This document shows, in pieces, positions 3,475-43,473 of a DNA stretch of 64,000 nucleotides. This DNA comes from a virus. The position numbers and the translations under genes were made by a program. The stretch spans positions 37,532 to 101,531 of the IMG/VR virus record IMGVR_UViG_3300029267_002252; one strand, written 5' to 3'. The first letter of the stretch is position 1; the number at the start of each line of letters is the position of its first letter. The notes under the pieces were generated by a model. The model worked only from the letters and a program-made list of their open reading frames with translations, had not been told where the DNA came from and did not search any database.

Positions 3475-3477
3475 AAT

Positions 3478-5433: not shown

Positions 5434-5765
5434 TGGCATTAACACGAAAGAAGATTCAAGGTACCGCGTTCTATAAAGGTACTAGCAGCGAGATGGTTAT
5501 GCTCGACGTCGCTGACGTTAAATGTTATGAAGCAGGGACTACTACTGCGATACCCATGTATGCTACGAAGACAGGGGGAACACCATTTTGGCCCAGTCCT
5601 CCTGGCGCAGGTTTGAAGACCGATGCTAATGGGTATTTTCAGTTTTGGATAGAGTTTGAAGGATTGATTAAGGTGGAGATTACCAAGTTTGGATATACTC
5701 CGATTGTTCGGGACCATATTGGTACGCCGCCTGCTGACATGATAATTTATGGAGGCACTTTTTAA
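5433..5765 (+). CDS. Small fibre-adaptor domain protein
   Basis: 110 residues forming a single beta domain with CYEAGTTTAIPMYAT (31-45) and GYFQFWIEFEGLIKVEI (about 67-83). The same domain is the N-terminus of the proteins at 12258-14927 and 15449-16153, so it is probably an attachment domain shared by tail appendages; the fold resembles carboxypeptidase-regulatory or transthyretin-like domains, a structural guess. The start overlaps the stop of the gpI-like gene by one base (TAATG). It ends YGGTF; the next protein also ends in GGTF. Confidence 0.75.
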   Translation: MALTRKKIQGTAFYKGTSSEMVMLDVADVKCYEAGTTTAIPMYATKTGGTPFWPSPPGAGLKTDANGYFQFWIEFEGLIKVEITKFGYTPIVRDHIGTPPADMIIYGGTF

Positions 5766-5796
5766 TAAAGGCCATATTGTTTAAGGAGATATAGCT

Positions 5797-7260
5797 ATGG
5801 CTGAAGCTGTTCCGATTAGATTTTATTACGGTACGCGTTCCGGATTTGATTCAGTAAGTGATGCATCCGAAATAGGTCAGCCTTATTTTTTGACTGACCT
5901 AAACGCAATTGTTGTTGCGCATTCTACCGATGCGCCTAGTTCCGGGAACCTTAACTTTCTCCGTGGAGCAGTTAAGACCCAGTCCACAGGTTCGACACCG
6001 ACTGACAGTGCTGCCGATGCGTTCGGAGCTGCCAGCGGTCTGTTGATTTTTGACACGTCCAGCGATACGCTGTACATTTCGAACGGTTCGACCTGGGAGA
6101 CGATTTCCACTGGTGCTCAGCAGTTGAGTGACCTTACTGATGTTGGAGTTGCGACTCCGACTGATGGTAATGTTCTTCGCGGTGACGGTGACAGTTGGGA
6201 GTCCGCAGTATTGCAGCACGATGACCTTGGTGGCGTAGGAGCTGATGACCACCACAATCGTGACCACGCGATTGACAGTACTTCTGACCACGACGGAGTG
6301 TCAGGAGCTACTGAGGACAATTTCGTATCTTTTGACTCGAATGGTCTGCCTAAAGATTCGGGGAAGAGTGATTCTGATTATGAAGATGCTGGAGCCGTGA
6401 CTTCGCACGAAAGTACGTATGACCACTCGGACTTACACACTCGCCAGCATGCGATTGACAGTGCATCCGACCATACGGGTACCGCGACGACCGGTAATCT
6501 GCTTGAAGCGGATGCGAATGGACTTCCGACTGACGCGAGTTACAAGCTGAATGACTCTGGTGATACTTCTGCCGACCTCTGGTCAGCATCGAAAATTGAC
6601 TCCGAGATTCAGTCAGCTATTGACGGACTCGACTGGCAGGACTCTGTCCTCAGTTATATTACCGACAATACAGTCGCTCCTCCGAGTGAAACTACTGGAA
6701 ATCGTTTCATCCTCGCCGGCGACGGCGGTGCTCCTCATGCGAACTGGGACGGTGCTTCTGCCGGAGACCTCGTTGAGTTCAACGGGTCTACTTGGGATGC
6801 CTATACGCCGAATGAAGGTTGGGCTGCGTGGGTAGAGGATACCAATGAGACTCGCGTATACAATGGGTCCGCATGGGTGAAACGCGCTGCTACTGAGAAC
6901 CACAATGATATGGCTAACATTCAGGGCGGAACTGCATCAGAGCGTTACCATTTGACCAATGCTCAGCATACTGTTGCGACACAAGCCGCTACATCTGGAC
7001 AGAATGGTTACATGACCTCCACTTACGCAAGTAAACTGGATGGGATTGAAGACAGTGCCGATGTGACTGATGCGACCAATGTTGCTGCGGCTGGTGCTAT
7101 TATGGGAACATCCTTTTCCGGGAAGGGTGAACTTATTGGAGCGTCTGCTGATGATACCCCTGGAATTCTTGCAGCCGGGACAGACAATTATGTTCTGATT
7201 GCTGATTCCGGGGAAACTCTCGGAATTAAATGGGGTCCGGTGGCAGGAGGAACCTTCTAA
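5797..7260 (+). CDS. Tail fibre protein (short, VPIRF-type N-terminus)
   Basis: 487 residues. The N-terminal 45 residues (AEAVPIRFYYGTRSG then QPYFLTDLNAIVVA) form the small domain that starts many phage fibres and recurs in the next gene. The middle is built of repetitive linkers (DHDGVSGATEDNFVSFDSNG, THESTYDHSDLHT-like) also present at 16153-18027. The C-terminus (about 410-487) resembles the generic trimer-type fibre ending seen across phages. It is preceded by AAGGAGATATAGCT. Role inferred: receptor binding or a fibre shaft on the baseplate. Confidence 0.82.
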   Translation: MAEAVPIRFYYGTRSGFDSVSDASEIGQPYFLTDLNAIVVAHSTDAPSSGNLNFLRGAVKTQSTGSTPTDSAADAFGAASGLLIFDTSSDTLYISNGSTWETISTGAQQLSDLTDVGVATPTDGNVLRGDGDSWESAVLQHDDLGGVGADDHHNRDHAIDSTSDHDGVSGATEDNFVSFDSNGLPKDSGKSDSDYEDAGAVTSHESTYDHSDLHTRQHAIDSASDHTGTATTGNLLEADANGLPTDASYKLNDSGDTSADLWSASKIDSEIQSAIDGLDWQDSVLSYITDNTVAPPSETTGNRFILAGDGGAPHANWDGASAGDLVEFNGSTWDAYTPNEGWAAWVEDTNETRVYNGSAWVKRAATENHNDMANIQGGTASERYHLTNAQHTVATQAATSGQNGYMTSTYASKLDGIEDSADVTDATNVAAAGAIMGTSFSGKGELIGASADDTPGILAAGTDNYVLIADSGETLGIKWGPVAGGTF

Positions 7261-7274
7261 AACGAGCAATCATA

Positions 7275-7302
7275 GGGAGGGGAGGAATGAGCCTCCCCTC
7301 CC
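7275..7302 (+). other. Perfect 11-bp hairpin between fibre genes
   Basis: GGGAGGGGAGG (7275-7285), a six-base loop, and its exact complement (7292-7302). No T-run follows, so it is not a standard intrinsic terminator; a 3' end protector or processing site of the preceding fibre transcript is more likely. A TTGCA palindrome follows five bases later. Confidence 0.6.
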
Positions 7303-7306
7303 AAAA

Positions 7307-7321
7307 TTGCAGGTGATTGCA
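7307..7321 (+). repeat. TTGCAA-type palindrome copy (TTGCAGGTGATTGCA)
   Basis: Intergenic, just upstream of the RBS of the large spike gene. The outer A of the second half is replaced by C. Confidence 0.55.
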
Positions 7322-7336
7322 CGGAGGATATAGAGA

Positions 7337-10300
7337 ATGGCTGAAGAAGTCCCGATTAGATTTTTATACGGAGCGGAAGCAAGTATTCCATCCGCTACTG
7401 GTGCCGATGGTAGACCGATAGTTACTGATGACACCGATGATGAAAAATTATATGTAGCAATTAACAACGCCAACGTCCAGATGGGCGGTAAAGCAGTTGT
7501 AGAACATACTCAGCAGACGACAGGTAATCCGCATAGTCTTGATTATTCTGACGTGTCGGGAGCTGACGGAGCCACCGATGTTACCGGGGCTGAACTGGAA
7601 GAGTTGACTGATGGAAGTAAATCTGCTTTGCATGAACATCAGATGCCGTATGATTATCTCATCGCGCCTTCAGGAGGAAATTATACTTCTATATCAGCAT
7701 ATGTAGCAGACTCTCCTGCCCAAGGAGATGTTATAGCGTTAGCTCCCGGAACGTATACTGAAACTAGTAATATAACGCTCCAGGCAGGAGTTACTATGTT
7801 TGCTTTAGCCAGCCAGCGCGATAGCAACCAACCTGTTAGAGTTGTTTTAGGGAGTTATTCATTCCAAGGAGGTGCTGGTTCAAGGATTGATGGAATATAT
7901 TTTGATATAACTCCAAATTCAGATTCCAATAAAATAACATTATCTATAGATACTATATTCGAAAACTGTGTTCTTGACTATTCCGGAACCGTCGGTAGCC
8001 AAGGGATATATTTCAACTCCGGGTGTATTATCAGTAATACGCGGATACTTGGAAACAATTACTTATATAATGCTCTTGAATGTAACGGAGCAGAGAATTT
8101 CAGTTTGAGAGATATTTATATATCTGGAGTAGATACTGATTACGGTCGAGGGGTATATTTACTATCTCCGAATGTAGGCGGCTCAACCATACAAAGAATT
8201 ACGATGGAAGATTTTGCTACTGCCTCGTCCGCTAACGATGCAGTATACTTATCAGGAAATACCGCAACTAAACCTTGTTCTGTAGAGCATTTGCATATCA
8301 ACGGCGGAAGTAATGTAAATGTAGGGCTGTATATTTACAGCGATATAGAAGGAGCAATGAGCGTTTCAGATTGCAGTTTCACGCAGTGTTTTATCGGAAT
8401 GCAAGTAACTTCTGGAAGATGCGCTTTAAGTAACGTAACAGCTTATGATTGTGATAGAGGGTTTTATTTCTCCGGAGCAGTTCAAGGCTCTAATATAGTT
8501 GCTCGGGGATGCGGCGACGGGACTACTAGCGGTTATGGTATGTATATAGGGTCGTGGAGATGTAACATATCAAACATATCAATATCGAATACAGTTTCCG
8601 GTTCTTGGGATATTCGCAATCCTAGTGGGCAAAGAAATGTTATAAGTAATTTTCACTGCGCTGGTGACTGTAGTTTAAGCGGTGCTGACAATGTTTATGC
8701 CTTTGGGACTATCGAAGGTGACCTTACTATAGGTGAAGGGAGTACCGACGATAGAAATGTTTTCATCGATGTTAAAGTATTCGGTTCGGAAACAGATGGA
8801 GGAATACATACTAAATGGAATTCACGAGTTCATAGAGATGCTTCTGGAACACCTTCGTCTGCTTATGATGTTGATGATGGATATGAGCGCGGAGATTTTT
8901 GGATACAGGAATCTACTGATTCATTATGGGTGTGTGTAGATAATTCTACCGGAGCTGCTGTGTGGACGCAACTTGTCCCAGTTAGTTTAGATTTATCTGG
9001 ACATAACGTAACTGAGCTTGATGATGTTTCTAGTGCCGGTTCTGGACAAATAATTACGTCCGGAGAGCGCACCAACCTGTCTACCGCATATAATCACAGC
9101 CAAGTAACTACGGGAAATCCACACAGCTTAGATGCTGCTGACGTAGGAGCAGCTCCTTCGAGTCACGGGTCTGCAAACCATTCCGGAACTATAGGTACAG
9201 CTTCTCAAATATCTGATTTTGATACTGAAGTGTCTAATAATACCAACGTTTCCGCTAATACCGCAGCGAGACACGCAGAATCTCATACAATAGCGTCTCA
9301 TAGCGATACAACTGCAACTGGAGCGGAGCTTAATACGTTGACTGGTGGTGGTAATGCTGATGCATTGCATTCACATTCTGCTCCATCTCATACGATAGCA
9401 TCGCATTCAGATACATCAGCAACCGGAGCAGAGTTAGATTCCCTTACTGATGGAAGTAAAGTTACACTCCATAAGCATCAGGGCGATTGGGACACTTTGA
9501 TTGATGCCGGAGGGAACGGCGATTTTTCTACAGTAGGAGCAGCCGTTTCCGGAAGTCCCAGTCAAGCTGGTTCAGTGTGGTCTGTCATAGGGAGTACTAC
9601 TGAGTCGGGGAATGTTACCCTTCCTCAAGATGTTGCGCTAGTCGGCAATGGTCCGTCAGGTACCCCTAATCATGTTTCAAGACTTGTTATGGGAAATAAT
9701 ACTCTTGCCCTGAGTGCTGGATGTGTAGTTAGGGGATTAGAGCTATATTTTACCCCGACGTCGGATACTAATAAAATAACTATGGCGGCTGACTCAGCTT
9801 TAATTGATTGTACTATTATTCTTACCGGAAGTACCAAATCAAAAGTAATCTCGATAAATGGAGCGAGAACAAAGATACATAATGTTATTATTGATGGTAA
9901 TGATTATACATATAATGCTATTTATAGCGGAGTTGCTTATGAGGAAATTTCCATACAAGATGTTACAATTAAAGAATTTAACTGTGCTTCTGGTGGTGGG
10001 ACATGTGTAACTATAACAGCTCCAGGAAACGGATGTATTTTTAGAAATATTAATATTACTGAACTTGCTTCCGGGACGCCTAGCGAGTACGTATGCAGTT
10101 TTGGAACGCCGTCAGGCTATGGCGTGGTTTACGATAATATTAGGATAGATGGAAATGATAGTTGTAATTCAGCAATTTTTGGCAGTTCGATATCATATCC
10201 GATTAATGTTAGCAATTGTACGTTTTTGAATATATCGTCTTCTTATCAAGTGCAGATGGGACAAGGTGCTCAAGTATCTAATATCGTATGCAGTAATATA

Positions 10301-11377
10301 GCGACTCTTAATCTTGGTGCGTACGCGTCTGCACGTGGAGTAAAGATGGTAAATAGCTGTGGACGTATTTACGGTTCGACGTGGGTCGGTCTACATGATT
10401 TTTATATGTCTTCTGGTTCTGGTGAGTTTACGTATGAAATCCAACTGGGAACATTTTGCGATGTATCTCATGGACTTGTAGACGGAGATTATTATCAGCC
10501 GGGACCGCAAGGTTCCTGTAGCCGTGTGTACGTCACAGGAAATATGTATTTGTATAATACCGTAAGGTGGCGTGAAGTTACTTGTGATGGGACTTTTTAT
10601 GTTGATACGGGAGGAGTTACTTCTTATGCAGATACTTATGTAGCTCCTTATTATTATAGCCCTTCTTATGACCGGTTTCGCAATAATCTCAGGATGAGCT
10701 CATCTGCATATGCAAGTGAGAGTGTTGGGAGTATTTCATGGAGCCCGCTTAGATTCAGGGGGAATGTCCTGCGCACTGATTTTGGTCTAAGTGACAATTC
10801 TTGGACGTCGGTAGGAAATACGGGAAATCGGTTGGGAGTCAGGGTAGAGGCCGGAGTAACCTATATTATAGAGTATTTTATTCTCGTAGTAGGTAGGCCG
10901 GGAACCTCAACAGGAATCATTCAGCTCAGGTTTAACTTTCCGAGCATGGAAACAGACAGTTTTGGGGGTATTTATGGGTTTACTGAGGAGCATAACCTTG
11001 ATGTTTCGGTCGGCAGTGATTATTTTGGTGGCCCAGGAGCTTATAGGACGACAGCATCGGTTGGTGGTTATAAGAGTTGGGGGCTTAATGCTTTGACCGG
11101 GCAAGATATATGGGTGCGGTCTTCTGGAAACGATAGCACTGCGGGAGTCACTGGCACGGTAACTTTTCACACACAGATAGGTACATTGAGCACATCATAC
11201 TATTATTTTTTCCCAATGCATGTATGGTTGATGTACGAGTGTGGAGATGTAGAGGGTTGGTTTTACCCGGATATTCTAATGAATTGGGGTGGTACTCAGG
11301 CAGTGGTTAAGCAGAATTCTTATGTGAGGATGTCAGCCGGAGCCGCAGAGACCCTGTCCTCCATAGAGACCCAATAG
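7337..11377 (+). CDS. Large tail spike with two tandem beta-helix modules
   Basis: 1346 residues, the largest protein in the window. Residues 1-45 are the VPIRFLYG attachment domain shared with the upstream fibre. Two pectate-lyase-like right-handed beta-helices follow, one starting near 105 (YLIAPSGGNYTSI, then PGTYTETSNITL) and one near 716 (TLIDAGGNGDFSTVGAAV), each with an LxxxCxxxxCxI-like rung pattern. Linkers between them carry HSQVTTGNPHSLDAADVGA and SHSDTSATGAELDSLTDG, shared with 16153-18027. The last 190 residues form a beta-rich cap (RVEAGVTYIIEYFILV). Twin helices suggest an internal duplication; polysaccharide depolymerase or receptor-binding function is inferred. Confidence 0.85.
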   Translation: MAEEVPIRFLYGAEASIPSATGADGRPIVTDDTDDEKLYVAINNANVQMGGKAVVEHTQQTTGNPHSLDYSDVSGADGATDVTGAELEELTDGSKSALHEHQMPYDYLIAPSGGNYTSISAYVADSPAQGDVIALAPGTYTETSNITLQAGVTMFALASQRDSNQPVRVVLGSYSFQGGAGSRIDGIYFDITPNSDSNKITLSIDTIFENCVLDYSGTVGSQGIYFNSGCIISNTRILGNNYLYNALECNGAENFSLRDIYISGVDTDYGRGVYLLSPNVGGSTIQRITMEDFATASSANDAVYLSGNTATKPCSVEHLHINGGSNVNVGLYIYSDIEGAMSVSDCSFTQCFIGMQVTSGRCALSNVTAYDCDRGFYFSGAVQGSNIVARGCGDGTTSGYGMYIGSWRCNISNISISNTVSGSWDIRNPSGQRNVISNFHCAGDCSLSGADNVYAFGTIEGDLTIGEGSTDDRNVFIDVKVFGSETDGGIHTKWNSRVHRDASGTPSSAYDVDDGYERGDFWIQESTDSLWVCVDNSTGAAVWTQLVPVSLDLSGHNVTELDDVSSAGSGQIITSGERTNLSTAYNHSQVTTGNPHSLDAADVGAAPSSHGSANHSGTIGTASQISDFDTEVSNNTNVSANTAARHAESHTIASHSDTTATGAELNTLTGGGNADALHSHSAPSHTIASHSDTSATGAELDSLTDGSKVTLHKHQGDWDTLIDAGGNGDFSTVGAAVSGSPSQAGSVWSVIGSTTESGNVTLPQDVALVGNGPSGTPNHVSRLVMGNNTLALSAGCVVRGLELYFTPTSDTNKITMAADSALIDCTIILTGSTKSKVISINGARTKIHNVIIDGNDYTYNAIYSGVAYEEISIQDVTIKEFNCASGGGTCVTITAPGNGCIFRNINITELASGTPSEYVCSFGTPSGYGVVYDNIRIDGNDSCNSAIFGSSISYPINVSNCTFLNISSSYQVQMGQGAQVSNIVCSNIATLNLGAYASARGVKMVNSCGRIYGSTWVGLHDFYMSSGSGEFTYEIQLGTFCDVSHGLVDGDYYQPGPQGSCSRVYVTGNMYLYNTVRWREVTCDGTFYVDTGGVTSYADTYVAPYYYSPSYDRFRNNLRMSSSAYASESVGSISWSPLRFRGNVLRTDFGLSDNSWTSVGNTGNRLGVRVEAGVTYIIEYFILVVGRPGTSTGIIQLRFNFPSMETDSFGGIYGFTEEHNLDVSVGSDYFGGPGAYRTTASVGGYKSWGLNALTGQDIWVRSSGNDSTAGVTGTVTFHTQIGTLSTSYYYFFPMHVWLMYECGDVEGWFYPDILMNWGGTQAVVKQNSYVRMSAGAAETLSSIETQ

Positions 11378-11388
11378 AGGATTAGTAT

Positions 11389-12228
11389 ATGAATAATTAT
11401 AGTGATGTAACTTTGACAATTGACGACCTTACTTCAGATTTGACAGATGGTGGGTTTTATCGGGATGAGCGCGGGTCAACGTTTACTAATTGCGTTTTCC
11501 AAAATACTGCTGGCGATGCTATGATTGAGCATGTTGATTTTTCATATGCTTTGTTTACCAACTGTACATGGAGCAACCCTGTTAAAGATTGTTTATTCGT
11601 ATCTGCTGAAGGAGCGGTTCCGGGGATATGTAATGTCGTGTTCGATTCAGCTCCTCCTGATAAATGGCTCCCGGCAGATGACATTAACACTATTCTCAGG
11701 GGTACGGGGGAAGAAACTGAGTGGGATTTTGCCCGTATTGATGAGACTGCTGTTCGAAATGCTTTTGAGAACACCCCTATAAATATGGATGACGAGAATC
11801 CAGAATATCTTACAGCAGATGATTATACATTGACTATGGGGAAAGCTCATTATGATTGCCCGATATATGCTGGGGAAGTTTCGAGAACTGAGTGGTTAGC
11901 TGTGGCTACATTTGAAATATCTACAGATGCTATTGATTCATACCAGCCTTACGATGGTATTCCAGATATTCCAGCGAACGGGACAAGCTCATGTACAATT
12001 ACCGTTACTGCAAAAGACCGCGCAGGAGATACCAAAGATGATGATACGACAGTAGTCGTATTTAAGACAACCAGGGGAAGCTTAAGTTCGTTACAGGTTA
12101 CGATGACTGATGGAGTAGCCGAAACAGATTTAACGTCAGTTACAGAAACGACTATCGCTACTGTTACAGCAGAGATAGAAGGAGAGGAGCCGCTGACTAT
12201 TGATATTCAGTTTGCTCCTACGACATAA
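11389..12228 (+). CDS. Spike-associated protein with short beta-helix and Ig-like domain
   Basis: 279 residues and paralogous to 28205-28990. The N-terminal third has beta-helix-like rungs (GSTFTNCVFQNTAGDAMIE, YALFTNCTWSNPVKDCLF). The C-terminal 95 residues form a bacterial Ig/invasin-like domain (DIPANGTSSCTITVTAKDR, TTRGSLSSLQVTMTDGVAE). Each paralogue directly follows a large beta-helix spike gene, so it is probably a partner or cap of that spike. Close RBS GAGGA at 11377-11381. Confidence 0.75.
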   Translation: MNNYSDVTLTIDDLTSDLTDGGFYRDERGSTFTNCVFQNTAGDAMIEHVDFSYALFTNCTWSNPVKDCLFVSAEGAVPGICNVVFDSAPPDKWLPADDINTILRGTGEETEWDFARIDETAVRNAFENTPINMDDENPEYLTADDYTLTMGKAHYDCPIYAGEVSRTEWLAVATFEISTDAIDSYQPYDGIPDIPANGTSSCTITVTAKDRAGDTKDDDTTVVVFKTTRGSLSSLQVTMTDGVAETDLTSVTETTIATVTAEIEGEEPLTIDIQFAPTT

Positions 12229-33800: not shown

Positions 33801-34952
33801 ATGGGCAAGAAGAAGGATGATGAGTCCCCAAAACCCGTAAAAAAGGCCAGCATCGGGGAAATTGTCAGCAATATCAAGAAGAAATACGGGAATGACTCGA
33901 TAGCGCAGGCATCGAAGTCACCAGCAGTGCGTATTGAACGTATTCCCAGTGGGATATACGGAGTGGATAAGCTGCTGGAGGGGGGTTGGCCCCTGGGACG
34001 CATTGTTCAGATTTACGGGAAGGAGTCTGGAGGGAAGACTACGACATTATTGCACTCGATTGCAAATGCTCAGCGTTATTGCCGCCACTGCCTTCGCGTT
34101 AAGCCGGACCGCATCTTTTATCCGGGGGAACCCGCATGCGAATGCAAGACACCCAAGCCGTTTGAGACTATTTGGCTGGATGTTGAGGGAGCGTACGACG
34201 CGGATTGGTCTGAGTGCTGCGGAGTTGACAACGACTTGATGTGGGTTACGCAGCCCGATAATGCTGAAGCCGGACTTGATATCGTTGATGGAGTCGTTCG
34301 CGAAGCAGACGCCAGCTTTGTTGTAATCGATACTCTCACCATGTTGACGCCCAAAGCTGACCTGGAGAAGAGTATGGAAGAAGACGTTATGGCGCTGCGC
34401 GCCCGCAAAATCAACAGATTCATCCGCCGGATTGTGATGGCACAGAATGAGATGGGGATGTTAGCTAAGCGTAGACTCGTTATCTTTATAGTTTGCCACA
34501 TCAACATCGGGATTGGAGGATTCCACCCGACGGAGGAGAAGGCGGGAGGGAAAACCAAGGAGTATGCCAACAGTTTTGAGTTGCGCTTTAAGAAATGTAA
34601 GCAGGATGCTGTTGATATCGGGAAAATGGCTGGAGTTGAGTGTGAAGTCAAGAAGACTAAACTGACCTCCACCTTCGGGGATATCGCCAAGTTCAACTTA
34701 GTGACCAAGCGGACCTCCTTCTTCCAGAAGGGAGTCATCGATGAGACCCCGATGCTGTTCAGGGATTCTATGGACCTCGAGACCATATTCAAGGATGGAA
34801 AGGATTATTGCGTTCATCCGAAAGCCGGGTTTGAGCTGCCGAAAGGAATCACTAACAACAAGGATGTCCAGCAGTTCTTCATCGAGAATCGTAACGAGTA
34901 CGAGTGCCTGAAGCGATTCAACCTTGATTTCATGTTTGGAGATGTTACCTGA
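33801..34952 (+). CDS. recA: RecA/UvsX-type recombinase with cysteine insertion
   Basis: 383 residues. It catalyses ATP-dependent strand exchange on single-stranded DNA. Visible features are Walker A GKESGGKTT (73-81), the strand FETIWLDVEGAYDADW (121-136), and Walker B FVVID (173-177). An insertion after Walker A holds C94, C97, C113 and C115 (CRHC, then CEC), a probable zinc site absent from standard RecA. The loop region with HINIG and KAGGKTKEYANS fits the L2/DNA-binding segment. Coupled to the next gene by one base overlap. It probably serves phage repair and recombination-driven replication. Confidence 0.92.
   Translation: MGKKKDDESPKPVKKASIGEIVSNIKKKYGNDSIAQASKSPAVRIERIPSGIYGVDKLLEGGWPLGRIVQIYGKESGGKTTTLLHSIANAQRYCRHCLRVKPDRIFYPGEPACECKTPKPFETIWLDVEGAYDADWSECCGVDNDLMWVTQPDNAEAGLDIVDGVVREADASFVVIDTLTMLTPKADLEKSMEEDVMALRARKINRFIRRIVMAQNEMGMLAKRRLVIFIVCHINIGIGGFHPTEEKAGGKTKEYANSFELRFKKCKQDAVDIGKMAGVECEVKKTKLTSTFGDIAKFNLVTKRTSFFQKGVIDETPMLFRDSMDLETIFKDGKDYCVHPKAGFELPKGITNNKDVQQFFIENRNEYECLKRFNLDFMFGDVT
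34050..34065 (+). repeat. TTGCAA-type palindrome copy in recA (TTGCACTCGATTGCAA)
   Basis: In-frame within recA just after Walker A; one half-site is TTGCAC. Confidence 0.45.
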
Positions 34953-35335
34953 TGACTGACTGGGACAGACCTGCCGAGAAAGCGAAAGTGGACCGTTGGG
35001 GAAAGCCTCCTCATGAGAAGCAGCAGAATCGCCGACTCGACCGCAGTCTCGGAGGAGAGCCCACGCCTGCATCTGGACGGCTGTCTGGATATAAGGGGGA
35101 CCGGGAATTGGACGGAATGTTTAAGATAGAGGAAAAAGCGACGAGAGCCCAATCGATTGCTGTTCGTCGTAAAGTACTCGAGAAGATTTATAAAGAAGCG
35201 AAGCAGCAGGACAAGGAAGCAGCGCTCGCCTTCAGTTTTCTGGAGGGAAAGAGCCCAGCTCCTTCTGACTGGATTGCTGTGCCTGTCGAACTGTTTCGCG
35301 AGATGTACCAAGCTTGGAAGGAGAAAGTACAATGA
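34952..35335 (+). CDS. PD-(D/E)XK resolvase-like nuclease
   Basis: 127 residues. RRLDRSLGGEP and SGRLSGYKGD precede ELDGMFKIEEKATRAQS, where D54 and E60-x-K62 fit a PD-(D/E)XK core. The rest (LEKIYKEAKQQDKEAALAF, then DWIAVPVELF) follows the plan of small phage Holliday-junction-resolvase-like proteins. Likely a structure-specific DNA nuclease working with the recombinase upstream; motif spacing supports this but no search was possible. It overlaps recA by one base and the next gene by four. Confidence 0.65.
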   Translation: MTDWDRPAEKAKVDRWGKPPHEKQQNRRLDRSLGGEPTPASGRLSGYKGDRELDGMFKIEEKATRAQSIAVRRKVLEKIYKEAKQQDKEAALAFSFLEGKSPAPSDWIAVPVELFREMYQAWKEKVQ

Positions 35336-35706
35336 TTGCAACCAATTTTATTCAGGATGAGGAATCCCTCAAGAAGCCAGTGCCCTACAGCGAGATGACC
35401 GTCGCATCAACCCATACGGACCCGGATGACCAGGACCGTCCCTGGATACACGTAAGTGCAGATGAGGATGGGAATGTTGTTGCTGAGGAGATTCCCTGGG
35501 AGCTGCGTGAGGACCCTGATGAGGAGTCAGATGAGATGGACCTGAAGCAGGAAGAGCTGCGCCGCAAGAAGCGTCTGCTGCTCATCAATACTATTGGGAC
35601 CTTCGCTTACATCTCCGCAGCAGCACTGGGGTGTGCTATGGGGAATATGGGATGGTTAATCGTCATCCTGATGACTATTGCTATTTTTTGCATGGACCGT
35701 AAGTAG
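35332..35706 (+). CDS. Membrane protein with acidic N-terminus
   Basis: 124 residues. ATG 35332 overlaps the previous TGA (ATGA) with AAGGAG 12 bases upstream. The first 80 residues are acidic (DPDEESDEMDLKQEELRRKK); two membrane segments follow, about 84-101 (LLINTIGTFAYISAAALG) and 104-120 (MGNMGWLIVILMTIAIF). A membrane protein inside a recombination operon is unexpected; possible superinfection or membrane-attachment role. No family recognised. Confidence 0.7.
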   Translation: MIATNFIQDEESLKKPVPYSEMTVASTHTDPDDQDRPWIHVSADEDGNVVAEEIPWELREDPDEESDEMDLKQEELRRKKRLLLINTIGTFAYISAAALGCAMGNMGWLIVILMTIAIFCMDRK

Positions 35707-35709
35707 GTT

Positions 35710-35790
35710 CATGTGTATTTGCGCGCGCGTGTGAGGTCGTCACACTGCGCTATTAAAATGCGCCATGTGTATTCGCGCATGTGCGTGAGG
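35710..35790 (+). repeat. Pair of long CATGTGTATT-GCG repeats
   Basis: Copy 1 begins CATGTGTATTTGCGCGCGCG (35710), copy 2 CATGTGTATTCGCGCATGTG (35764); both end in GTGAGG. They fill the intergenic space with alternating purine-pyrimidine GCGCGCG tracts. Confidence 0.7.
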
Positions 35791-35809
35791 TATTAGATTC
35801 GAGGAGAGA

Positions 35810-36091
35810 ATGAGCATGGCTAAGAAAGTCGGAAAGAGTGATTACGGGGTTTATAAGATTGATGGGGATAACCTCGTCCTGAAGAAGGGCGGTTTCGCCA
35901 ACACGTATGAGTGTGAGAAGTGGGTGAGAGCCCAGGCGAAGAAAGAGGGAGCTGGACTCGAAGGTGAGTTCGCAATCCTGTCGCTGCGCAAGAAGTTCAC
36001 CCTCCAGACCAAGACGACGGTGACGGTTAAGCTCATCGATTCAGATGCCGCTGCCGCCGTACCGAGCAAGCCGGCTGCATCTGATGAGTGA
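35810..36091 (+). CDS. Small basic protein, unknown
   Basis: 93 residues from ATG 35810, or 91 from ATG 35816; GAGGAG at 35801-35806 fits 35816 slightly better. The core GVYKIDGDNLVLKKGGFANT and KFTLQTKTTVTVKLID suggests a compact beta-alpha domain, with an alanine-rich tail. It overlaps the nuclease gene that follows by eight bases. Function unknown. Confidence 0.7.
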   Translation: MSMAKKVGKSDYGVYKIDGDNLVLKKGGFANTYECEKWVRAQAKKEGAGLEGEFAILSLRKKFTLQTKTTVTVKLIDSDAAAAVPSKPAASDE

Positions 36092-36947
36092 TGGATTCAG
36101 TTTCGGCGACCTGAGAACGCATAACCAGAAAAAACGCGCCGGGGAGGTTTACGAAGAGCCGGAGTGGGTGAAGGAGACGCCGGAGGAAACCGTCGAGAAG
36201 GCTGTCACTGAGCTGATGTCGAAGCCGGAGAGACGGATATTCGACGATTATTACCATCCCAGTCGTATCCACGACATGTGCCCAGTCGCGGAGTTCTGGT
36301 TGCGGATACGCCGCCCGCCAGTTCTTATTGAGGAGCCTAACCTGCCGCTGTCGTTAATGGCTGCTGCGGGGACCCAGGCCCACAACTTTTTCCAGGACCG
36401 GGTCCTGGGACCTGCGGGAATCCTGTGGGGAAGTTGGGAATGCCCCAAATGCGGGGCAGAGTTTGAGAAGACGTTCCTCCCTGGGAAGTGCCCGGAGTGC
36501 AGTTGCAATCGATTGCAATACCTGGAACCACAAGTTCTCAGCCACGAACACAAGATTCGGGGTCATTCTGATGGAATCATCAGGATACCTTCCCTGGATG
36601 ACATGATTCTTGAGATGAAGAGTAAATCCAGGAACACCTGGGAGAAGACTCATGCCCCCAACGCCAGGGAGAGGACCCAGGCGAGTATTTACATGGAGCT
36701 GCTGGGTGTGGATAAGTGCGTATACCTATTTATTTGCCGGGATGACTACAGATACCGTGCCGTCATTGAGGATAAACGTGAGGACCTGGTTGAGAATGCA
36801 TTCAGGACCATTGACGCCATCGAAGAGTGTGTAGCAGCCGGCGAACCGGACCCAGTCATCATGTGCCAGCGTAAGTGCAGCAGAAAATCGACGACGCGGG
36901 CCCGCGAATGTCCCTTTAGAGAAGAGTGCTGGAGCTTTAAGAAATGA
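36084..36947 (+). CDS. Cas4/RecB-like PD-(D/E)XK nuclease with zinc ribbon
   Basis: 287 residues; ATG 36084 is preferred over an earlier in-frame ATG that would overlap the previous gene by 47 bases. Nuclease residues are GTQAH (H100), GHSDG (D163), ILEMKSK (E177, K179) and the TQASIY motif (Q199, Y203). C66 plus C261, C265, C276 and C282 reproduce the split cysteine set of Cas4/AddB-type Fe-S nucleases. A CPKC...CPEC pair (120-139) adds a zinc ribbon between H100 and D163. Expected activity is exonuclease processing of DNA ends for recombination. No CRISPR array or cas1 is nearby. Confidence 0.85.
   Translation: MSDGFSFGDLRTHNQKKRAGEVYEEPEWVKETPEETVEKAVTELMSKPERRIFDDYYHPSRIHDMCPVAEFWLRIRRPPVLIEEPNLPLSLMAAAGTQAHNFFQDRVLGPAGILWGSWECPKCGAEFEKTFLPGKCPECSCNRLQYLEPQVLSHEHKIRGHSDGIIRIPSLDDMILEMKSKSRNTWEKTHAPNARERTQASIYMELLGVDKCVYLFICRDDYRYRAVIEDKREDLVENAFRTIDAIEECVAAGEPDPVIMCQRKCSRKSTTRARECPFREECWSFKK
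36503..36518 (+). repeat. TTGCAA palindrome copy, perfect, in nuclease gene
   Basis: TTGCAATCGATTGCAA encodes part of SCNRLQY between the zinc ribbon and the catalytic core. Confidence 0.55.
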
Positions 36948-37495
36948 ACAATATAGTAGCCATAGATGTTGGATTTGCGAGTATGGGCATTGTCGTCTTG
37001 TGTATTCGCGCGCGTGATTTAGGTCTTGTGTATAAAGAAGTGATATCGACCAAGCCGTCGCCCAAGAAGCTGAGTATTCGGTCTGCTGATGACAATGTGA
37101 GGCGGTGTCGTGAAATCACGAGGTCGGTACGCCGCGTCATCGACGAGTATGAGCCCGCTGCGGTCGTGCTGGAGATGCCGAGTATGGGCTCTAAGAGTGC
37201 TAAAGCTATGCGAGCGATGGGATTGGCTAGTGGGATAATCGCCGCGTTGGATGTGGTGTATGAGAACCTGCCGTTCTTGTATGCGACACCCACCGACGTT
37301 AAGGTCGCCATGACGGGTAAGAAGTCCGCCTCGAAGGAGGAAGTGCAATCACGTGCAGTGGAAATGATACCGGACATCCTGGATGGTGTGAATAAGACTC
37401 AACGGGAGCACGTAGCAGATGCTTTAGGAGCTGCGGTAGCGGCGAAGGATGCCCCCGTTATTCAGATGTTAAGGAGAATGGAAAATGACGCTTAA
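36944..37495 (+). CDS. ruvC: RuvC-like Holliday junction resolvase
   Basis: 183 residues. RNase H-fold resolvase motifs are visible: AIDVGFASMG with D8, VVLEMPS with E77, a SKSAKAMRAMGLASG helix, TPTDVKVAMTGKKSASKEEV, and EHVADALGAA with H156 and D159. Length is close to bacterial RuvC. It would cut four-way junctions made by RecA; a second nuclease of similar role lies two genes upstream. Start overlaps the Cas4-like stop by four bases. Codons 18-24 lie in a CTTGTGTATTCGCGCG repeat. Confidence 0.9.
   Translation: MNNIVAIDVGFASMGIVVLCIRARDLGLVYKEVISTKPSPKKLSIRSADDNVRRCREITRSVRRVIDEYEPAAVVLEMPSMGSKSAKAMRAMGLASGIIAALDVVYENLPFLYATPTDVKVAMTGKKSASKEEVQSRAVEMIPDILDGVNKTQREHVADALGAAVAAKDAPVIQMLRRMENDA
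36997..37017 (+). repeat. CTTGTGTATTCGCG repeat inside ruvC
   Basis: The only full-length copy within a confident gene, encoding LCIRARD. A shorter CTTGTGTATTTG occurs at 37563. Confidence 0.55.
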
Positions 37496-37856
37496 GGAGC
37501 GTATTTCGGAGGAACTCAAGGGTAAGAAGAAACCGCATGATGATGATGCGGTGCGTGAGTATCTTGTGTATTTGTATCATGAATTGGGGTTACGTACGGG
37601 CCAGATAGGTGAGCGCTTTGATGTAGGAGCCGCAACAGTGCGTTCATTGCTGCGGGCGTTCAAAATCGAGATGAAGGCGTCCGGGGGTGGAAAGGATTTC
37701 ATGAAGCAGTTGAAAGCGCATGGGTATGTTGACCGCAATGACTTTTTTGGACGCAACGCTGATATGGCGAAGACGGACATGGCGAAGGAACTCGAAGTGA
37801 GTTACGGCTCGCTGTGTACGCATTATGAGATATGGAGAAAGAGCTTTACTGGTTGA
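37485..37856 (+). CDS. HTH protein, possible regulator
   Basis: 123 residues overlapping ruvC by 11 bases. The helix-turn-helix candidate is LRTGQIGERFDVGAATVRSL (about 36-55), and a second helical pair near the end (MAKELEVSYGSLCTHYEIW) looks like another HTH. Highly charged, no membrane part. Last gene of the recombination operon; transcriptional control is inferred. Confidence 0.7.
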   Translation: MTLKERISEELKGKKKPHDDDAVREYLVYLYHELGLRTGQIGERFDVGAATVRSLLRAFKIEMKASGGGKDFMKQLKAHGYVDRNDFFGRNADMAKTDMAKELEVSYGSLCTHYEIWRKSFTG

Positions 37857-37875: not shown

Positions 37876-37903
37876 TTGACTAATATAGAATGTATGATAT
37901 AAT
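37876..37903 (+). promoter_or_regulatory. Extended -10 promoter
   Basis: TTGACT and TATAAT spaced 16, TG one base before the -10. Reads into the gene at 37963. Confidence 0.85.
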
Positions 37904-37962: not shown

Positions 37963-38772
37963 ATGTCTGAGACACAAGACAGTACAAAGGCGATGAGTAT
38001 TCTTCAGAACGGTGACTTTACCCCGTACCTCCTTGGCGAGGATGGGAAGCGTCTTACACGGGATGAGGCATTCCGGAAAGCCGCGAAGGACCTGGTCACG
38101 TTTCACGACAAGGCCAATATTGCGCTGGCTGAAGCGCTCTTCGTTATTAACGGGGAGGAGTACTGGCGGGATTGGATTAATCCCAAGACCGGCAAAGAGT
38201 ACGACAGTTTTCAGCAGTATATTGAAAGTCCGGAACTGGAGTTTCAGTACCGCAAGGCGATGTATCTCATTAAAATATGGGACCAACTCCGGAATAAGCG
38301 GGGCATACCGCTTGAAGTAATCCGGAATAAAGGGTGGTCGAAGCTGAAAGAGATTGCGAGTATCGCACAGGAAGAGGCCATCGAAACTTCCGACATCGTA
38401 GACCTTATTGAGGACAGCTCCGGCATTACTGTTGAGACGGTGCGGGAACGTGCGCTGACACTCCGGTCGAAAGCAATCAAGGACGGGAGAAAAATCGAGA
38501 AGGTCGTGCGTATCACGTTTAACCTGTTTGAAGAGCAGGCCGAGAATCTCAAGACGGCGCTCGAGTTGTCTGAGAAAATCTCTACCAGTGAAAAGTCGGG
38601 TGCCAACCTTGACTATATCTGTACTTCATTCATTGCGTCACACGTGCACGGTGACAAGCGGGAAGAAATTAAGCGTCTGGTGAAGGAGCTTGAAGGAGCT
38701 GCCGGCGTGAAAGTGCTTGTTGCGGATGCGGATGGTGTAATCTATTCCAACAAAGAGTTCAAGGATAAATGA
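37963..38772 (+). CDS. Early protein with DNA-binding-like central region
   Basis: 269 residues. Residues 60-125 (YWRDWINPKTGKEYDSFQQY, RKAMYLIKIWDQLR, then VIRNKGWSKLKEIASIA) resemble the helical regions of ParB-like and phage plasmid-partition-type HTH proteins that recognise DNA. A later helical part (NLKTALELSEKISTSEKS) could dimerise. Such a protein could read the dispersed palindromes, but this is a hypothesis from fold impression and context only. RBS GGAGGGTGAGCG. Confidence 0.6.
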   Translation: MSETQDSTKAMSILQNGDFTPYLLGEDGKRLTRDEAFRKAAKDLVTFHDKANIALAEALFVINGEEYWRDWINPKTGKEYDSFQQYIESPELEFQYRKAMYLIKIWDQLRNKRGIPLEVIRNKGWSKLKEIASIAQEEAIETSDIVDLIEDSSGITVETVRERALTLRSKAIKDGRKIEKVVRITFNLFEEQAENLKTALELSEKISTSEKSGANLDYICTSFIASHVHGDKREEIKRLVKELEGAAGVKVLVADADGVIYSNKEFKDK

Positions 38773-39028: not shown

Positions 39029-39056
39029 TTGACTTATTACTTTTGTATGCTATAAT
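39029..39056 (+). promoter_or_regulatory. Extended -10 promoter before SWIM/MoxR pair
   Basis: TTGACT-N16-TATAAT with TATGC before the -10; first ATG 57 bases downstream. Confidence 0.85.
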
Positions 39057-39112: not shown

Positions 39113-39655
39113 ATGGGAGGCGAGATTAAAAAAGACCTAATGTATATCTGTGACTTCCTAGAGGTCGGGAAGTGGGAGGTTCGCAAAGTCAACAAGCGAA
39201 CTGTAAAGACGGAGGCCACGTATTCTATCACTACAGAATACAATGAGGAAACCGAGGAAGGTATTGCCTCTTGTGACTGTCAGGGATTTGAGAACCGTGG
39301 TCACTGTAAACACATCGAGATGGTCGGGGGAAAAGTATCTCCGCAAGATAATCAGACGAGACTGCGGGGCGAAGACCAAATCGAAGCGGTGAAGAAGTTC
39401 CTTGAAAATTATGCCAAGGAGCAGTTCGGTGGGAACGATTTTGTTCAATACTGCCCCGAGAATGACGGCATAGCGGAACGGTTTGACATCGTTTCGGAAA
39501 GTGATGAACGGAAACTGATGTGGACATCGGTAATTGTGCCGATTGACGAAGGTCGCGAGACCGCTACAGTTCTCGTTCGGGTCGTGTTCAGTACGGATTT
39601 CAATGATGATGTTGATGCCCTTACCGGCAAGGATGCCGAGGAGGGTGAAGAATAA
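39113..39655 (+). CDS. SWIM zinc-finger protein
   Basis: 180 residues. A SWIM motif is explicit: C54-x-C56-x8-C65-x-H67 in SCDCQGFENRGHCKH. The segment before it (WEVRKVNKRTVKTEATYSI) forms the typical strand pair that leads into SWIM, and the rest is acidic and beta-rich. SWIM domains bind DNA or protein partners and recur beside MoxR ATPases and VWA proteins in bacterial operons. Here it shares an operon with the AAA+ ATPase next door. RBS GGAGGGTGAGC. Confidence 0.82.
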   Translation: MGGEIKKDLMYICDFLEVGKWEVRKVNKRTVKTEATYSITTEYNEETEEGIASCDCQGFENRGHCKHIEMVGGKVSPQDNQTRLRGEDQIEAVKKFLENYAKEQFGGNDFVQYCPENDGIAERFDIVSESDERKLMWTSVIVPIDEGRETATVLVRVVFSTDFNDDVDALTGKDAEEGEE

Positions 39656-39689
39656 CCAGTCCATTTCTTTTTTCTAAAGGAGGGTGAAG

Positions 39690-40865
39690 ATGGACGACAA
39701 AAAACTGGCAGGATTTGCCACAAAGTCTGAGTCGGCAATCGACCAGATGCGTAAGGAAGAGGCGAAGCTCGTTCTGCACGAGTTTATCGCTGAAGTCGGG
39801 TGCACCGATTTCGAGGTCGCGGATGATGATTTGCGTGAGAAGGGTCTCAAGGCAGACGTCATTTCTGAAATAACCGACCTTACGATTCCCGGTGTGAAAC
39901 TTGCGTGGGTGACTGAGAGTACTCTCAATGTCAAGGTTACTCCTAAATCCTATAAAGGGATTAAGGGTCAGCCGACACCCACACTCAGGGAAGGTAAGGA
40001 GTTCGACGGCGATGCCGATTCGGATTTCTATATCTATCCCGAATGCACCCCCAAGGTAGTCGAACTGATTGAGGAGGGGTTTCCCGTTCTCTTAATCGGA
40101 CCTGCCGGCACGGGGAAAACAGACCTGCTTGAACGTGTTATCAAACACAAGCTCGGTCGGAAAGTACTTCCATTCAATATGACCGAGGAAACCACGGTCG
40201 ATGACTTCATCGGACACATCAGTCTGAAAGACAACGGTGACGGTGTGATGGAAACCGTATTTACCGATGGTCCGCTTACGCAGTCAATGCGTGAGGGATT
40301 GGTGCTTCAGATTGACGAGTTGGACGTGGCGGAGCAGGGAATTCTGTTCGTACTCCAACGAGTTCTGGAAGGTAAAGACCTCATTGTTTCCAAGAACCAC
40401 GGTGAGCGCGTCAAAGCGGCTCCAGGATTCGCAGTGGTCGCCACCTCGAATACCGCAGGACGAGGTGACCAAGCAGACATCTATCGGAGTCGGCAGATAC
40501 TTGACGAAGCCTTCCTTGATAGATGGTTGGGAGTGTTCCGCATCAATTACCTGTCACAGTCAGACGAGATAAAGGTGCTCCGCAGGAGAACCGGAATCGG
40601 ACAGGCGCAAGCGAAATCATTAACGAAGATTGCCACGGCTGCACGTGCGAGCTTCGGTCAGGATATTATGACTACATTCAGCCTTCGGAAAAGTATCGCC
40701 ACGGCGAAGCTTATCGGGAAGGGATGGACGATGGTCGATGCGTTCAAAGTCGCGGTGCTGAATAAATGCACGGACGAGGACGCGATGGCGCTTGCTGAGA
40801 TTTATCAGCGGATAGCTAAAGACCCGATTGATATGAGCGACAGGATGGGCACGAGCGAAGAATAG
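39690..40865 (+). CDS. MoxR/CobS-type AAA+ ATPase
   Basis: 391 residues from ATG 39690, which follows AAGGAGGGTG; a GTG six bases earlier is inside the ribosome site. Walker A GPAGTGKT (137-144), Walker B VLQIDE (205-210), sensor-1 TSNT (252-255) and the DEAFLDRW stretch (272-279) match the MoxR/CobS clade. The first 110 residues are a separate acidic domain. This clade works with VWA partners to remodel proteins or insert metals; in phages it is often labelled cobalt chelatase although other cobalamin genes are absent, as here. Partner likely at 41029. Confidence 0.9.
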   Translation: MDDKKLAGFATKSESAIDQMRKEEAKLVLHEFIAEVGCTDFEVADDDLREKGLKADVISEITDLTIPGVKLAWVTESTLNVKVTPKSYKGIKGQPTPTLREGKEFDGDADSDFYIYPECTPKVVELIEEGFPVLLIGPAGTGKTDLLERVIKHKLGRKVLPFNMTEETTVDDFIGHISLKDNGDGVMETVFTDGPLTQSMREGLVLQIDELDVAEQGILFVLQRVLEGKDLIVSKNHGERVKAAPGFAVVATSNTAGRGDQADIYRSRQILDEAFLDRWLGVFRINYLSQSDEIKVLRRRTGIGQAQAKSLTKIATAARASFGQDIMTTFSLRKSIATAKLIGKGWTMVDAFKVAVLNKCTDEDAMALAEIYQRIAKDPIDMSDRMGTSEE

Positions 40866-40889
40866 GTCACCCTCCGTTCTTCGCAAATG

Positions 40890-40920
40890 AAGGGGCGGGG
40901 GATGCAGACCTCCGCCCCTT
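40890..40920 (+). terminator. Stem-loop after AAA+ gene
   Basis: AAGGGGCGGGGG pairs with CCTCCGCCCCTT around ATGCAGA (12 bp with one G-T). No T-run follows, so termination efficiency is uncertain. Confidence 0.6.
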
Positions 40921-40952
40921 AACTAAGGGTGAGAAGTTGTTTGAAAATCTGC

Positions 40953-40980
40953 TTGACTTATTGCAATTATATGATATAAT
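40953..40980 (+). promoter_or_regulatory. Extended -10 promoter before VWA gene
   Basis: TTGACT-N16-TATAAT. The spacer contains TTGCAATTATATGA, overlapping one TTGCAA half-site. Confidence 0.85.
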
Positions 40981-41028
40981 ATAATTGTATATTTAGTTAA
41001 GATACTCATATATTCGGAGGGTGAACAA

Positions 41029-43473
41029 ATGAGTAAGTTAGCAAGAATGTTAGAAGTCGGACAGCAAGCGGCTGCACGTGTCTGTGCCGGCAAACGTGTT
41101 CGTATCCTTTACGACACGAAGGGCGGAGCATATACTGAGCCTAACAAGCATGGTATCATACATCTGCCACCACTTCCGGCGGACTTGAGTGATGAAGCAA
41201 TCAATATGCTTCGAGGTCTTGTTGACCATGAGTCCGGTCACGTTAATGACACCGACATGGGTGTTTACAAACGGAAGAAAATAATCGGCGCGGGGATTGT
41301 CCATTTTTTCAGTAATGCAATGGAAGATGCCAGGGTCGATAAGCTGATGGGGGAGAAGGCTCTCGGCGTAGCCCGAAACCTTGACTTCATTCACAATCAG
41401 GCGCTCTATAAAGAGGACATTTGCAGTAATATCCGAGACAAGGAGGGTTGCGATGATAACGAACGTGCCCTGCTTCTGCTCGGTATGCGTATGACAAGAA
41501 CCCACAGGCCGGACGATATTGAGTATATTGACAGTCGTGGAGAAGAGGTCAGCCCGATGTACCCGAAATTCGTGGACATGGTGAAGGAGCAGTTGGAGCG
41601 GGCGAAGTCAGTTCGCAGTACTGAGGAGGTAGTTAACCTCTCAATGGAAATGACTGAAATTTTGAAGGACTATATCAGTCAGGTCGAAGTGCCGAACCCG
41701 TATGGGGGAGAGGGTGAGGAAGGACAGGAAGGGGAAAGCCAGTCCGGTCAGGGACAGGGGAGTTCTTCTGAGGCTGATGGGGATAGTGAGAGTTCTGAGT
41801 CTGGCGGGAAGTCCTCAAAGGGAGGCAAGGGGAAAAAGAGCAAGAGCGACAAATCCGAGGACGGGGAAGGTAAAGGTGAGGGGGAGCAGGAAAAGGATAG
41901 TTCCGGTCCGGGGGAAGTTGAAGAAATTGATATGAGAAAAGATAAAGGTGACGATAGTTCTGCAAGTGATTGCAGTGAGGAGGGCGAAGATGAAGGAGCC
42001 GGCGAAGGGGAAGATGAATCCGGAGGAGGCGGAGATGATAGTGAAGAAACTGAAGAGGCTGAGGGAACTTCTGATTCTGCTGAAGGCGAAGACGGAGACG
42101 AGGCCGAGGATTCATCCTCTGATGGAGAAGGTTCTGATAGTGGAGCAGATGATGAAGGGGAGGTAGAGGACGAAGAGGAAGGTGAAGAGGAAAAGGATTG
42201 GGACGAGTGGGGCGAAGAGGATTATGAGGAAGATGGTTGGGATGATGATGGCGAGGATGAGGATTTTGATGATGACGAGGGTGAGGAGGAAGCCGAAGAA
42301 GGGGACGGTGATGGCGACGGGAGTCCTGATGGTGAGGAGAGTGAAGAAGACGGGGTAGAGGAAGAAGAAAAAAGCATCGAGGAGAAGCGGCAGGAAGTTA
42401 AAGATAAACTTGATGAAACTATCGGAGGCATTGCTCAGCAGAGCAGTGGAGCAGATGGGGGCGTGACTGCTGAAAGCGTGCTTTATGATAAGGTTAGCAA
42501 ACTGATTATTACTGACAAAGTTGATTCCGGCTATCGTGGGGAAACTGTGATACCTTACATCAATGACGACCGGGAGGTAGACCTTGTTGCTGAGAGAGAC
42601 CCGGCTGCGTTGGGAAAAGTATATCCGCATACGCATGCGGCGGACGCGAGGGAGCGGGGGTTCGAGCGATACACTAAGAATGTCCAAGAACTGAGGGGCG
42701 ATGTTAATGTGCTCCGGCGGAGACTGCTGATGGACTTGCTCGGCAATCCTAAGAAGTGGACAAAGCGACAGAAGCAGGGTACGATTAATGACAGGGATTT
42801 ATTCAGGGTCGCATTCAAAGAAGAAGATTTGTTCAAGCAGAAGCGGCGGAAGATTGAACTTGATGCTGCGGTTACTCTGCTCGTTGACTGCTCCGGTTCG
42901 ATGTCGGGAAGCAAGATACAGACGGCAACGGATGTTGCTATTATTCTGTCGGAAACATTGAACTTAGTCGGGGTACCGTTTGAAGTTCTCGGATTCACCC
43001 AAGTCGGAGGCGGGAGCCATCACTACAAAGAAGGGTACACCAGAGTGAGCCCACTGCTCGGCTATGTCGTAAAACCGTTTGAACGGAAATTAGACCATAA
43101 GACCAAAGGTGCGATGGGAAGTCTGCCCGAGGTACTGCTTTATCAGAACCTTGACGGTGAGAGTTTACGATGGGCCGCCAGGAGATTGGCAGAGCGCAAG
43201 GAAAGCAAGAAACTGTTAATCGTAATCTGCGATGGAGCGCCGGCGGGGTATGCTCGATACAATCCCGATGAAGATTTGATACAGGTTGCCCGACAGATAG
43301 AGGATAGCGGCGAAATCAATCTGTTCTGCATCGGAGTTCAGTACTCAAGTGTCGGTCGTTACTATACGAACCATTGCAAAGTTGATAAGGTGAGCGAACT
43401 TGTTAAGACTGCGTACACGAAGATATCCGGCTTCTTGAAGGGGTTAAAAAGTGTGCGAAAGGCGGGGATGTGA
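41029..43473 (+). CDS. CobT-like protein: HEXXH domain, acidic linker, VWA domain
   Basis: 814 residues. The N-terminal domain holds VDHESGHVNDTD (H67-E-x-x-H71) and NAMEDARVD (97-104), the layout of a gluzincin-like metallopeptidase or its inactive relative. Residues about 222-460 are an extreme low-complexity Glu/Asp/Gly/Ser linker. A VWA domain follows, with MIDAS LLVDCSGSMSGSK (near 619-631) and ICDGAP later. CobT-type proteins pair with MoxR/CobS ATPases, such as the one immediately upstream. A separate promoter drives it. The acidic linker may mimic nucleic acid or bind cations; that is inference. Confidence 0.88.
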   Translation: MSKLARMLEVGQQAAARVCAGKRVRILYDTKGGAYTEPNKHGIIHLPPLPADLSDEAINMLRGLVDHESGHVNDTDMGVYKRKKIIGAGIVHFFSNAMEDARVDKLMGEKALGVARNLDFIHNQALYKEDICSNIRDKEGCDDNERALLLLGMRMTRTHRPDDIEYIDSRGEEVSPMYPKFVDMVKEQLERAKSVRSTEEVVNLSMEMTEILKDYISQVEVPNPYGGEGEEGQEGESQSGQGQGSSSEADGDSESSESGGKSSKGGKGKKSKSDKSEDGEGKGEGEQEKDSSGPGEVEEIDMRKDKGDDSSASDCSEEGEDEGAGEGEDESGGGGDDSEETEEAEGTSDSAEGEDGDEAEDSSSDGEGSDSGADDEGEVEDEEEGEEEKDWDEWGEEDYEEDGWDDDGEDEDFDDDEGEEEAEEGDGDGDGSPDGEESEEDGVEEEEKSIEEKRQEVKDKLDETIGGIAQQSSGADGGVTAESVLYDKVSKLIITDKVDSGYRGETVIPYINDDREVDLVAERDPAALGKVYPHTHAADARERGFERYTKNVQELRGDVNVLRRRLLMDLLGNPKKWTKRQKQGTINDRDLFRVAFKEEDLFKQKRRKIELDAAVTLLVDCSGSMSGSKIQTATDVAIILSETLNLVGVPFEVLGFTQVGGGSHHYKEGYTRVSPLLGYVVKPFERKLDHKTKGAMGSLPEVLLYQNLDGESLRWAARRLAERKESKKLLIVICDGAPAGYARYNPDEDLIQVARQIEDSGEINLFCIGVQYSSVGRYYTNHCKVDKVSELVKTAYTKISGFLKGLKSVRKAGM
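41961..41974 (+). repeat. TTGCAA-type palindrome core in VWA gene (TGCAAGTGATTGCA)
   Basis: 14-base core inside the acidic linker coding region; outer bases lost. Confidence 0.4.

Follow-up and report, generated by a model that had tools for sequence, protein, structure and literature searches.

In a 64,000-nucleotide stretch of viral DNA (positions 37,532 to 101,531 of the IMG/VR record IMGVR_UViG_3300029267_002252; this whole stretch is termed the window below), we analysed a locus at positions 39113-43473 at which three open reading frames (ORFs) on the + strand encode a SWIM-finger protein, a MoxR/CobS-type AAA+ ATPase and a CobT-like protein that carries both an HEXXH motif and a VWA domain (termed the HEXXH-VWA protein). 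A first-pass annotation had described three such domain proteins, and their presence is confirmed by motifs and profile matches. The component parts, numbered within the window, are as follows.

39113..39655, + strand: SWIM zinc-finger protein, 180 amino acids (Pfam SWIM E=0.0017, just below the gathering score)
39272..39313, + strand: SWIM motif C54-x-C56-x8-C65-x-H67 (CDC-x8-CKH, residues 54-67), read from the sequence
39690..40865, + strand: MoxR/CobS-type AAA+ ATPase (AAA_5 1e-21, phrog_249 1.8e-55)
40098..40121, + strand: Walker A motif GPAGTGKT, residues 139-146 of the 393-amino-acid ATPase ORF, read from the sequence
40314..40319, + strand: Walker B Asp-Glu (D211-E212), invariant in the ATPase alignment
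41029..43473, + strand: HEXXH-VWA protein (CobT-like), 814 amino acids (phrog_1576 8.5e-81, CobT_C 2.1e-34)
41029..41703, + strand: predicted zincin-like N-terminal domain (N-domain), residues 1-225 (AlphaFold2 pLDDT 89.7, pTM 0.87; zinc peptidases top the VIA-align comparison)
41227..41241, + strand: HEXXH (HESGH, residues 67-71), predicted zinc site, present in 40 of the 45 clusters of relatives with a complete N-terminus
41314..41328, + strand: N-x-x-E-D (NAMED, residues 96-100), with E99 the predicted third zinc ligand from conservation in 53 sequences
41701..42453, + strand: acidic low-complexity linker, residues 225-475, 43% D+E, net charge -91
42832..43434, + strand: VWA domain (CobT_C, residues 602-802), from Pfam
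42886..42900, + strand: MIDAS motif D-x-S-x-S (DCSGS, residues 620-624), with D620, S622 and S624 invariant in the alignment

The ATPase ORF comprises 393 codons (39684-40865) when read from a GTG at 39684; the ATG at 39690, which follows AGGAGGGTG, is the more likely start. The product also matches CbbQ_C (5.5e-12), residues G139, G142, G144 and K145 of its Walker A motif are invariant in the alignment, and its sequence is nearest, among solved structures, to midasin, CobS, NorQ and CbbQ. The HEXXH-VWA protein also matches Pfam CobT (2.2e-13), and its relatives likewise carry acidic linkers. The SWIM ORF scores 18.3 bits against a Pfam gathering score of 19.6, slightly below threshold. With adjacent genes, and with an HEXXH N-domain and a MIDAS-bearing VWA domain in one protein, the ATPase and the HEXXH-VWA protein belong to the MoxR-vWA-metallopeptidase pairs that are already known in phages.

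Relatives of the pair occur in phages and in plasmids. A tblastn search with the HEXXH-VWA protein returned 92 phage records, and 975 plasmid records carry relatives, mostly from Klebsiella, Escherichia and Acinetobacter; the plasmid records listed are mostly about 110 kb long, a size that fits phage-plasmids. With the cyanophage form of the protein as query, 463 phage records were obtained, nearly all of them from cyanophages, and at least 275 relatives were confirmed among viral contigs. For comparison, 91 related proteins were sorted into 48 clusters, 45 of them with a complete N-terminus, and an ATPase gene was detected by profile beside most of the 48. The SWIM and HEXXH-VWA proteins also occur at 100% identity on the 183.6-kb contig IMGVR_UViG_3300017987_000005 (termed the longer contig), which reaches beyond the 101.5-kb record that contains the window.

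An HEXXH motif combined with a downstream Glu as third ligand is the gluzincin arrangement. The N-domain of the HEXXH-VWA protein bears this signature in its sequence, and it is predicted to bind zinc. In addition to its retention in most clusters, HEXXH is kept in 78 of the 85 proteins with a complete sequence. Across 53 aligned N-domains, where HEXXH is invariant by construction because all but the window's own sequence were selected for it, the Glu of the downstream N-x-x-E-D (E99) is invariant, and N96 and D100 are each conserved at 90% or more. The spacing from HEXXH to this Glu is mostly 24 to 31 residues, and both elements are intact in five cyanophages. As N-x-x-E-D was not used in the selection, the invariance of E99 together with the retention of HEXXH indicates that the combination of motifs is beyond chance.

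The AlphaFold model of the N-domain places HEXXH on a helix spanning residues 55-74 and E99 on a helix spanning residues 89-110. When this model was compared with the PDB by VIA-align, the top nine rows (Z 4.8-5.2) were all zinc-peptidase folds, namely abylysin, jannalysin, selecase and its mutant, ArdC, ZMPSTE24, a putative Zn-dependent peptidase and two aminopeptidases; solved CobT chains are not among the rows shown, which excludes nothing. A Foldseek search of the PDB with the same model gave no significant match (E of at least 0.4). The best structural matches, the minimal zincins abylysin, jannalysin and selecase together with ArdC, differ from the phage protein in having neither a VWA domain nor an AAA+ partner, and they align with a Z of only about 5. 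We take the structure comparison to support a zincin fold, short of proof. The first-pass annotation had read HEXXH and NAMED as a protease, and it had named placement outside metallopeptidase folds as one half of the outcome that would speak against its view. The protease reading gains support from the conserved HEXXH and Glu and from the zinc peptidases that head the comparison; as to the fold, the ranking agrees with a metallopeptidase, at Z values that are modest. Separately, a profile of the N-domain matches the anti-CRISPR protein AcrIIA26 (PDB 9zq6_B) in a stretch of about 53 residues that surrounds NxxED (E=5.8e-5), a match that was not reproduced with two single relatives as queries.

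The functions of neighbouring genes were surveyed by scanning against PHROGs 294 proteins of at least 120 amino acids, encoded within 4.5 kb of the pair in 47 clusters. DNA polymerase III alpha (phrog_405), with 23 hits, stands among the commonest families, together with primase, primase/helicase, DnaB-like helicase, another polymerase family, ligase and integrase. The neighbour families listed, which are those with more than two members, include no structural one. A DNA polymerase lies within 4.5 kb of the pair in 19 of the 34 contigs of at least 40 kb, compared with 6.4 expected at random placement (P=8e-7, a statistic that takes no account of common descent in gene order). The replication arm carries the pair in both Vibrio phage ICP2 and phage T5S1, with those structural genes that could be recognized on the opposite strand. 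The gene order in cyanophages is gp47-gp46-[peptidase-CobS]-gp45, followed in several by the clamp loader. The 'CobS' and 'peptidase' (phrog_459) of these T4-like cyanophages share with the window's pair an intact HEXXH and Glu, a VWA domain with MIDAS, a MoxR partner and a replication or recombination neighbourhood, whereas they belong to another virus lineage, are only distantly related in sequence and have no SWIM gene. A Photobacterium MOBH plasmid carries (at 1892-11562) a CobS-like ATPase gene, a DUF3150 gene and an intact-HEXXH VWA gene between genes for single-stranded-DNA-binding and toprim-domain proteins, an arrangement that places the pair near replication genes outside phages too.

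Within the window, the following elements define the context of the locus.

33801..37495, + strand: upstream recombination cluster encoding a UvsX/RecA-like protein, a Holliday-junction-resolvase family member, a Cas4/RecB-like exonuclease and RuvC (context, outside the proposed machine)
39029..39056, + strand: sigma70-type extended -10 promoter-like site (TTGACT-16-TATAAT) before the SWIM and ATPase genes, 1 of 13 in the window, where 0.11 are expected
40953..40980, + strand: sigma70-type promoter-like site of the same class before the HEXXH-VWA gene

All 13 sites are near-identical, strong extended -10 sigma70-like promoters (TTGAC-N16-18-TATAAT) that lie on the + strand between 37876 and 61509. 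Positions up to 75.4 kb of the 101.5-kb record, which include baseplate and tail-fibre genes, contain no promoter of this class. The longer contig carries 22 promoters of this class plus one long promoter-free stretch, and its PolA and DnaB genes sit in the promoter-bearing part; the terminase family phrog_2 has no match in the window's record or in the longer contig. Because the pair follows promoters that are absent from the structural region, we infer that its expression is not late, and it would be expressed together with the early or replicative genes. Each promoter-like site heads its own gene set, and therefore we recognize two transcription units, one with the SWIM and ATPase genes and one with the HEXXH-VWA gene. 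The three genes are thus probably not a single transcription unit, and the SWIM and ATPase genes are probably co-transcribed, which suggests a functional link between these two.

A SWIM protein is found near the pair in only 1 of the 47 other clusters, on a 90-kb contig where it lies downstream of the VWA gene at a distance of approximately 2.7 kb and is not adjacent to the pair. The three genes together are therefore a local arrangement, and the core of the system is the pair. This goes against the triad of the first-pass annotation, which had named a lack of conserved SWIM linkage in related phages as the other half of its refuting outcome. The proposed analogy with yehL/yehP/yehQ or with ternary conflict systems gains no support either. 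MoxR-vWA-SWIM operons of this kind have a conserved SWIM third gene and a bpMoxR-type ATPase, whereas the window's pair has no such conserved third gene, its ATPase scores 25.8 bits against a bpMoxR cut-off of 27, and its neighbours serve DNA replication and recombination. To find relatives of the SWIM protein, phages were searched by tblastn and viral and genome contigs by peptide patterns, and apart from the same virus a single chance match was all that turned up; an AlphaFold model of the protein made without an alignment was of low confidence (pLDDT 36). The second phage SWIM protein (contig L031, 13416-13841, 141 amino acids) lies near matches to primase and DNA polymerase III alpha.

phrog_249 and its relatives carry porphyrin or cobalamin labels, and the aerobic cobaltochelatase subunits CobS and CobT (9uka and related structures) share with the phage pair the ATPase class, the CobT-type VWA domain and a homologous N-domain. 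However, the curated cut-offs for these subunits are missed by far, with 95.9 bits for the ATPase versus 558.55 for CobS (TIGR01650) and 112.7 for the HEXXH-VWA protein versus 759.05 for CobT (TIGR01651). Neither a match to CobN (PF02514) nor a large chain of ribonucleotide reductase turned up in the window's record or the longer contig, both of which may be incomplete, and a host CobN is possible. The phage N-domain profile also hits the N-terminal part of cellular CobT chains of known structure (9uka and one further chain), where the HEXXH segment reads DSMA--LRQ and the third-ligand segment is kept as AVEQARVEA. Given the missed cut-offs, the lack of CobN and ribonucleotide reductase matches and the absence of HEXXH from solved CobT, we do not file the pair as a cobaltochelatase, and the suspicion that phage genes of this type are mislabelled as cobalamin genes gains support. 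Judged from the solved CobT sequences, which were compared without a tree, loss of a peptidase site in cellular CobT would be the simpler direction of change.

We favour, with a probability of about 0.5, a reading in which the ATPase and the HEXXH-VWA protein act as an ATP-driven metalloprotease on proteins of phage DNA replication or recombination. The MoxR-type ring would pull on or remodel a substrate protein, and the VWA domain would dock the HEXXH-VWA protein on this ring through its MIDAS, a complex that is proposed by analogy with CobS-CobT. The N-terminal gluzincin-like domain, tethered to the VWA domain by the long acidic linker, would then cut the substrate, with zinc held by H67, H71 and E99 and with E68 as the catalytic base. 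Likely substrates would be phage or host DNA-bound proteins engaged in replication or recombination, rather than a cobalt-corrin or the capsid. The SWIM protein may be a local accessory that could recruit nucleic acid or substrate.

Several observations weigh against such a replication-linked protease. The fold scores are modest, as Foldseek offered nothing significant and a Z of about 5 is under the safe level of the aligner. HEXXH is gone in nickie, an Acinetobacter phage-plasmid and ANB28 while the ATPase and MIDAS persist, and the peptidase is thus dispensable in those lineages; in Gordonia and Tsukamurella phages our search pattern detected no third-ligand Glu. As for context, the polymerase in the window's phage is tens of kb away from the pair, the CRP-810, Gordonia and Tsukamurella phages have no annotated polymerase, primase or helicase beside it, and the linkage statistic leaves common ancestry of gene order out of account.

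The repeated loss of HEXXH from proteins that keep their ATPase partner and MIDAS speaks for a MoxR-VWA remodelling chaperone, comparable to CbbQ/CbbO or NorQ/NorD, in which HEXXH would be structural and no peptide bond would be cut. The solved structures nearest to the ATPase favour the same explanation. It ranks first among the alternatives, ahead of virion assembly, counter-defence and cobaltochelatase in that order, but the breadth of HEXXH retention and the invariant third Glu make it unlikely.

A MoxR-vWA pair whose vWA protein has an N-terminal metallopeptidase was reported from group 2.2 jumbo phages by Iyer et al. (2021; PMC7824862), who suggested that it serves virion assembly, where the MoxR-VWA part would assemble virion components and the N-domain would process structural proteins. 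The window's pair consists of the same two proteins with the same domain order in the vWA protein, and this identical architecture is the argument for extending the proposal. The window differs in its upstream SWIM gene, its adjoining recombination genes and its promoters, which are not found in the baseplate and tail region. Elsewhere, the pair occupies the replication arm of ICP2 and T5S1 on the strand opposite the structural genes, lies between gp46/47 and gp45 in cyanophages, and has no structural family among its leading neighbours. A function in virion assembly is consequently rather improbable.

A protease made early to degrade host proteins, for counter-defence or host takeover, would agree with a promoter class belonging to the non-structural region and with the structural resemblance of the N-domain to ArdC, an antirestriction protein of plasmids (Z 5.1). 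We consider this improbable, as occurrence in hundreds of records from cyanophages and synteny of the pair with replication genes fit a housekeeping function better than a variable counter-defence one. Least probable by a wide measure are true cobaltochelatase subunits that use host CobN to raise cobalamin, which Liu et al. (2021) argued for archaeal and bacterial viruses and which could draw on Pfam CobT_C and CobT matches above the gathering score and on an annotated ribonucleotide reductase in phage T5S1, since the curated cut-offs are missed by 460-650 bits, neither CobN nor ribonucleotide reductase was found, and phages keep intact the HEXXH and Glu of which solved cellular CobT has no HEXXH.

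In many papers phage cobS is treated as an auxiliary metabolic gene that serves vitamin B12 synthesis; cyanophage studies list it as a B12 gene and report it in >90% of T4-like cyanophages. Liu et al. (2021) interpreted such pairs as CobST and regarded the label 'peptidase' in cyanophages as a mistake. Both the B12 label and the virion-assembly idea look wrong to us. What is added here is that a catalytic signature is conserved across phages yet absent from solved cellular CobT, and that the genomic context is one of replication and recombination and not structural. In the part of the literature that we covered, we found no paper that makes these points, and none that gives expression timing or virion proteomics for phage CobT. 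Should the pair prove to be a replication-linked protease, the B12 reading of phage cobS would be wrong, a widespread and uncharacterized step in the DNA metabolism of phages could be tested by changing single residues, and the origin of the cellular CobT N-domain would have a simple account. A bolder version, which we regard as doubtful, sees in phage 'CobST' an AAA+ metalloprotease associated with replication that clears proteins stuck on DNA, as a counterpart of DNA-protein-crosslink proteases, and that occurs as a pair throughout the T4-like cyanophages and in many phage-plasmids; the peptidase domain of cellular CobT would then be a catalytically dead copy.

One further gene near the locus carries a promoter-like site ahead of it (37876-37903). 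This gene, at 37963-38772 after the recombination cluster, encodes a 269-amino-acid protein of phrog_17202, a family of unassigned function.

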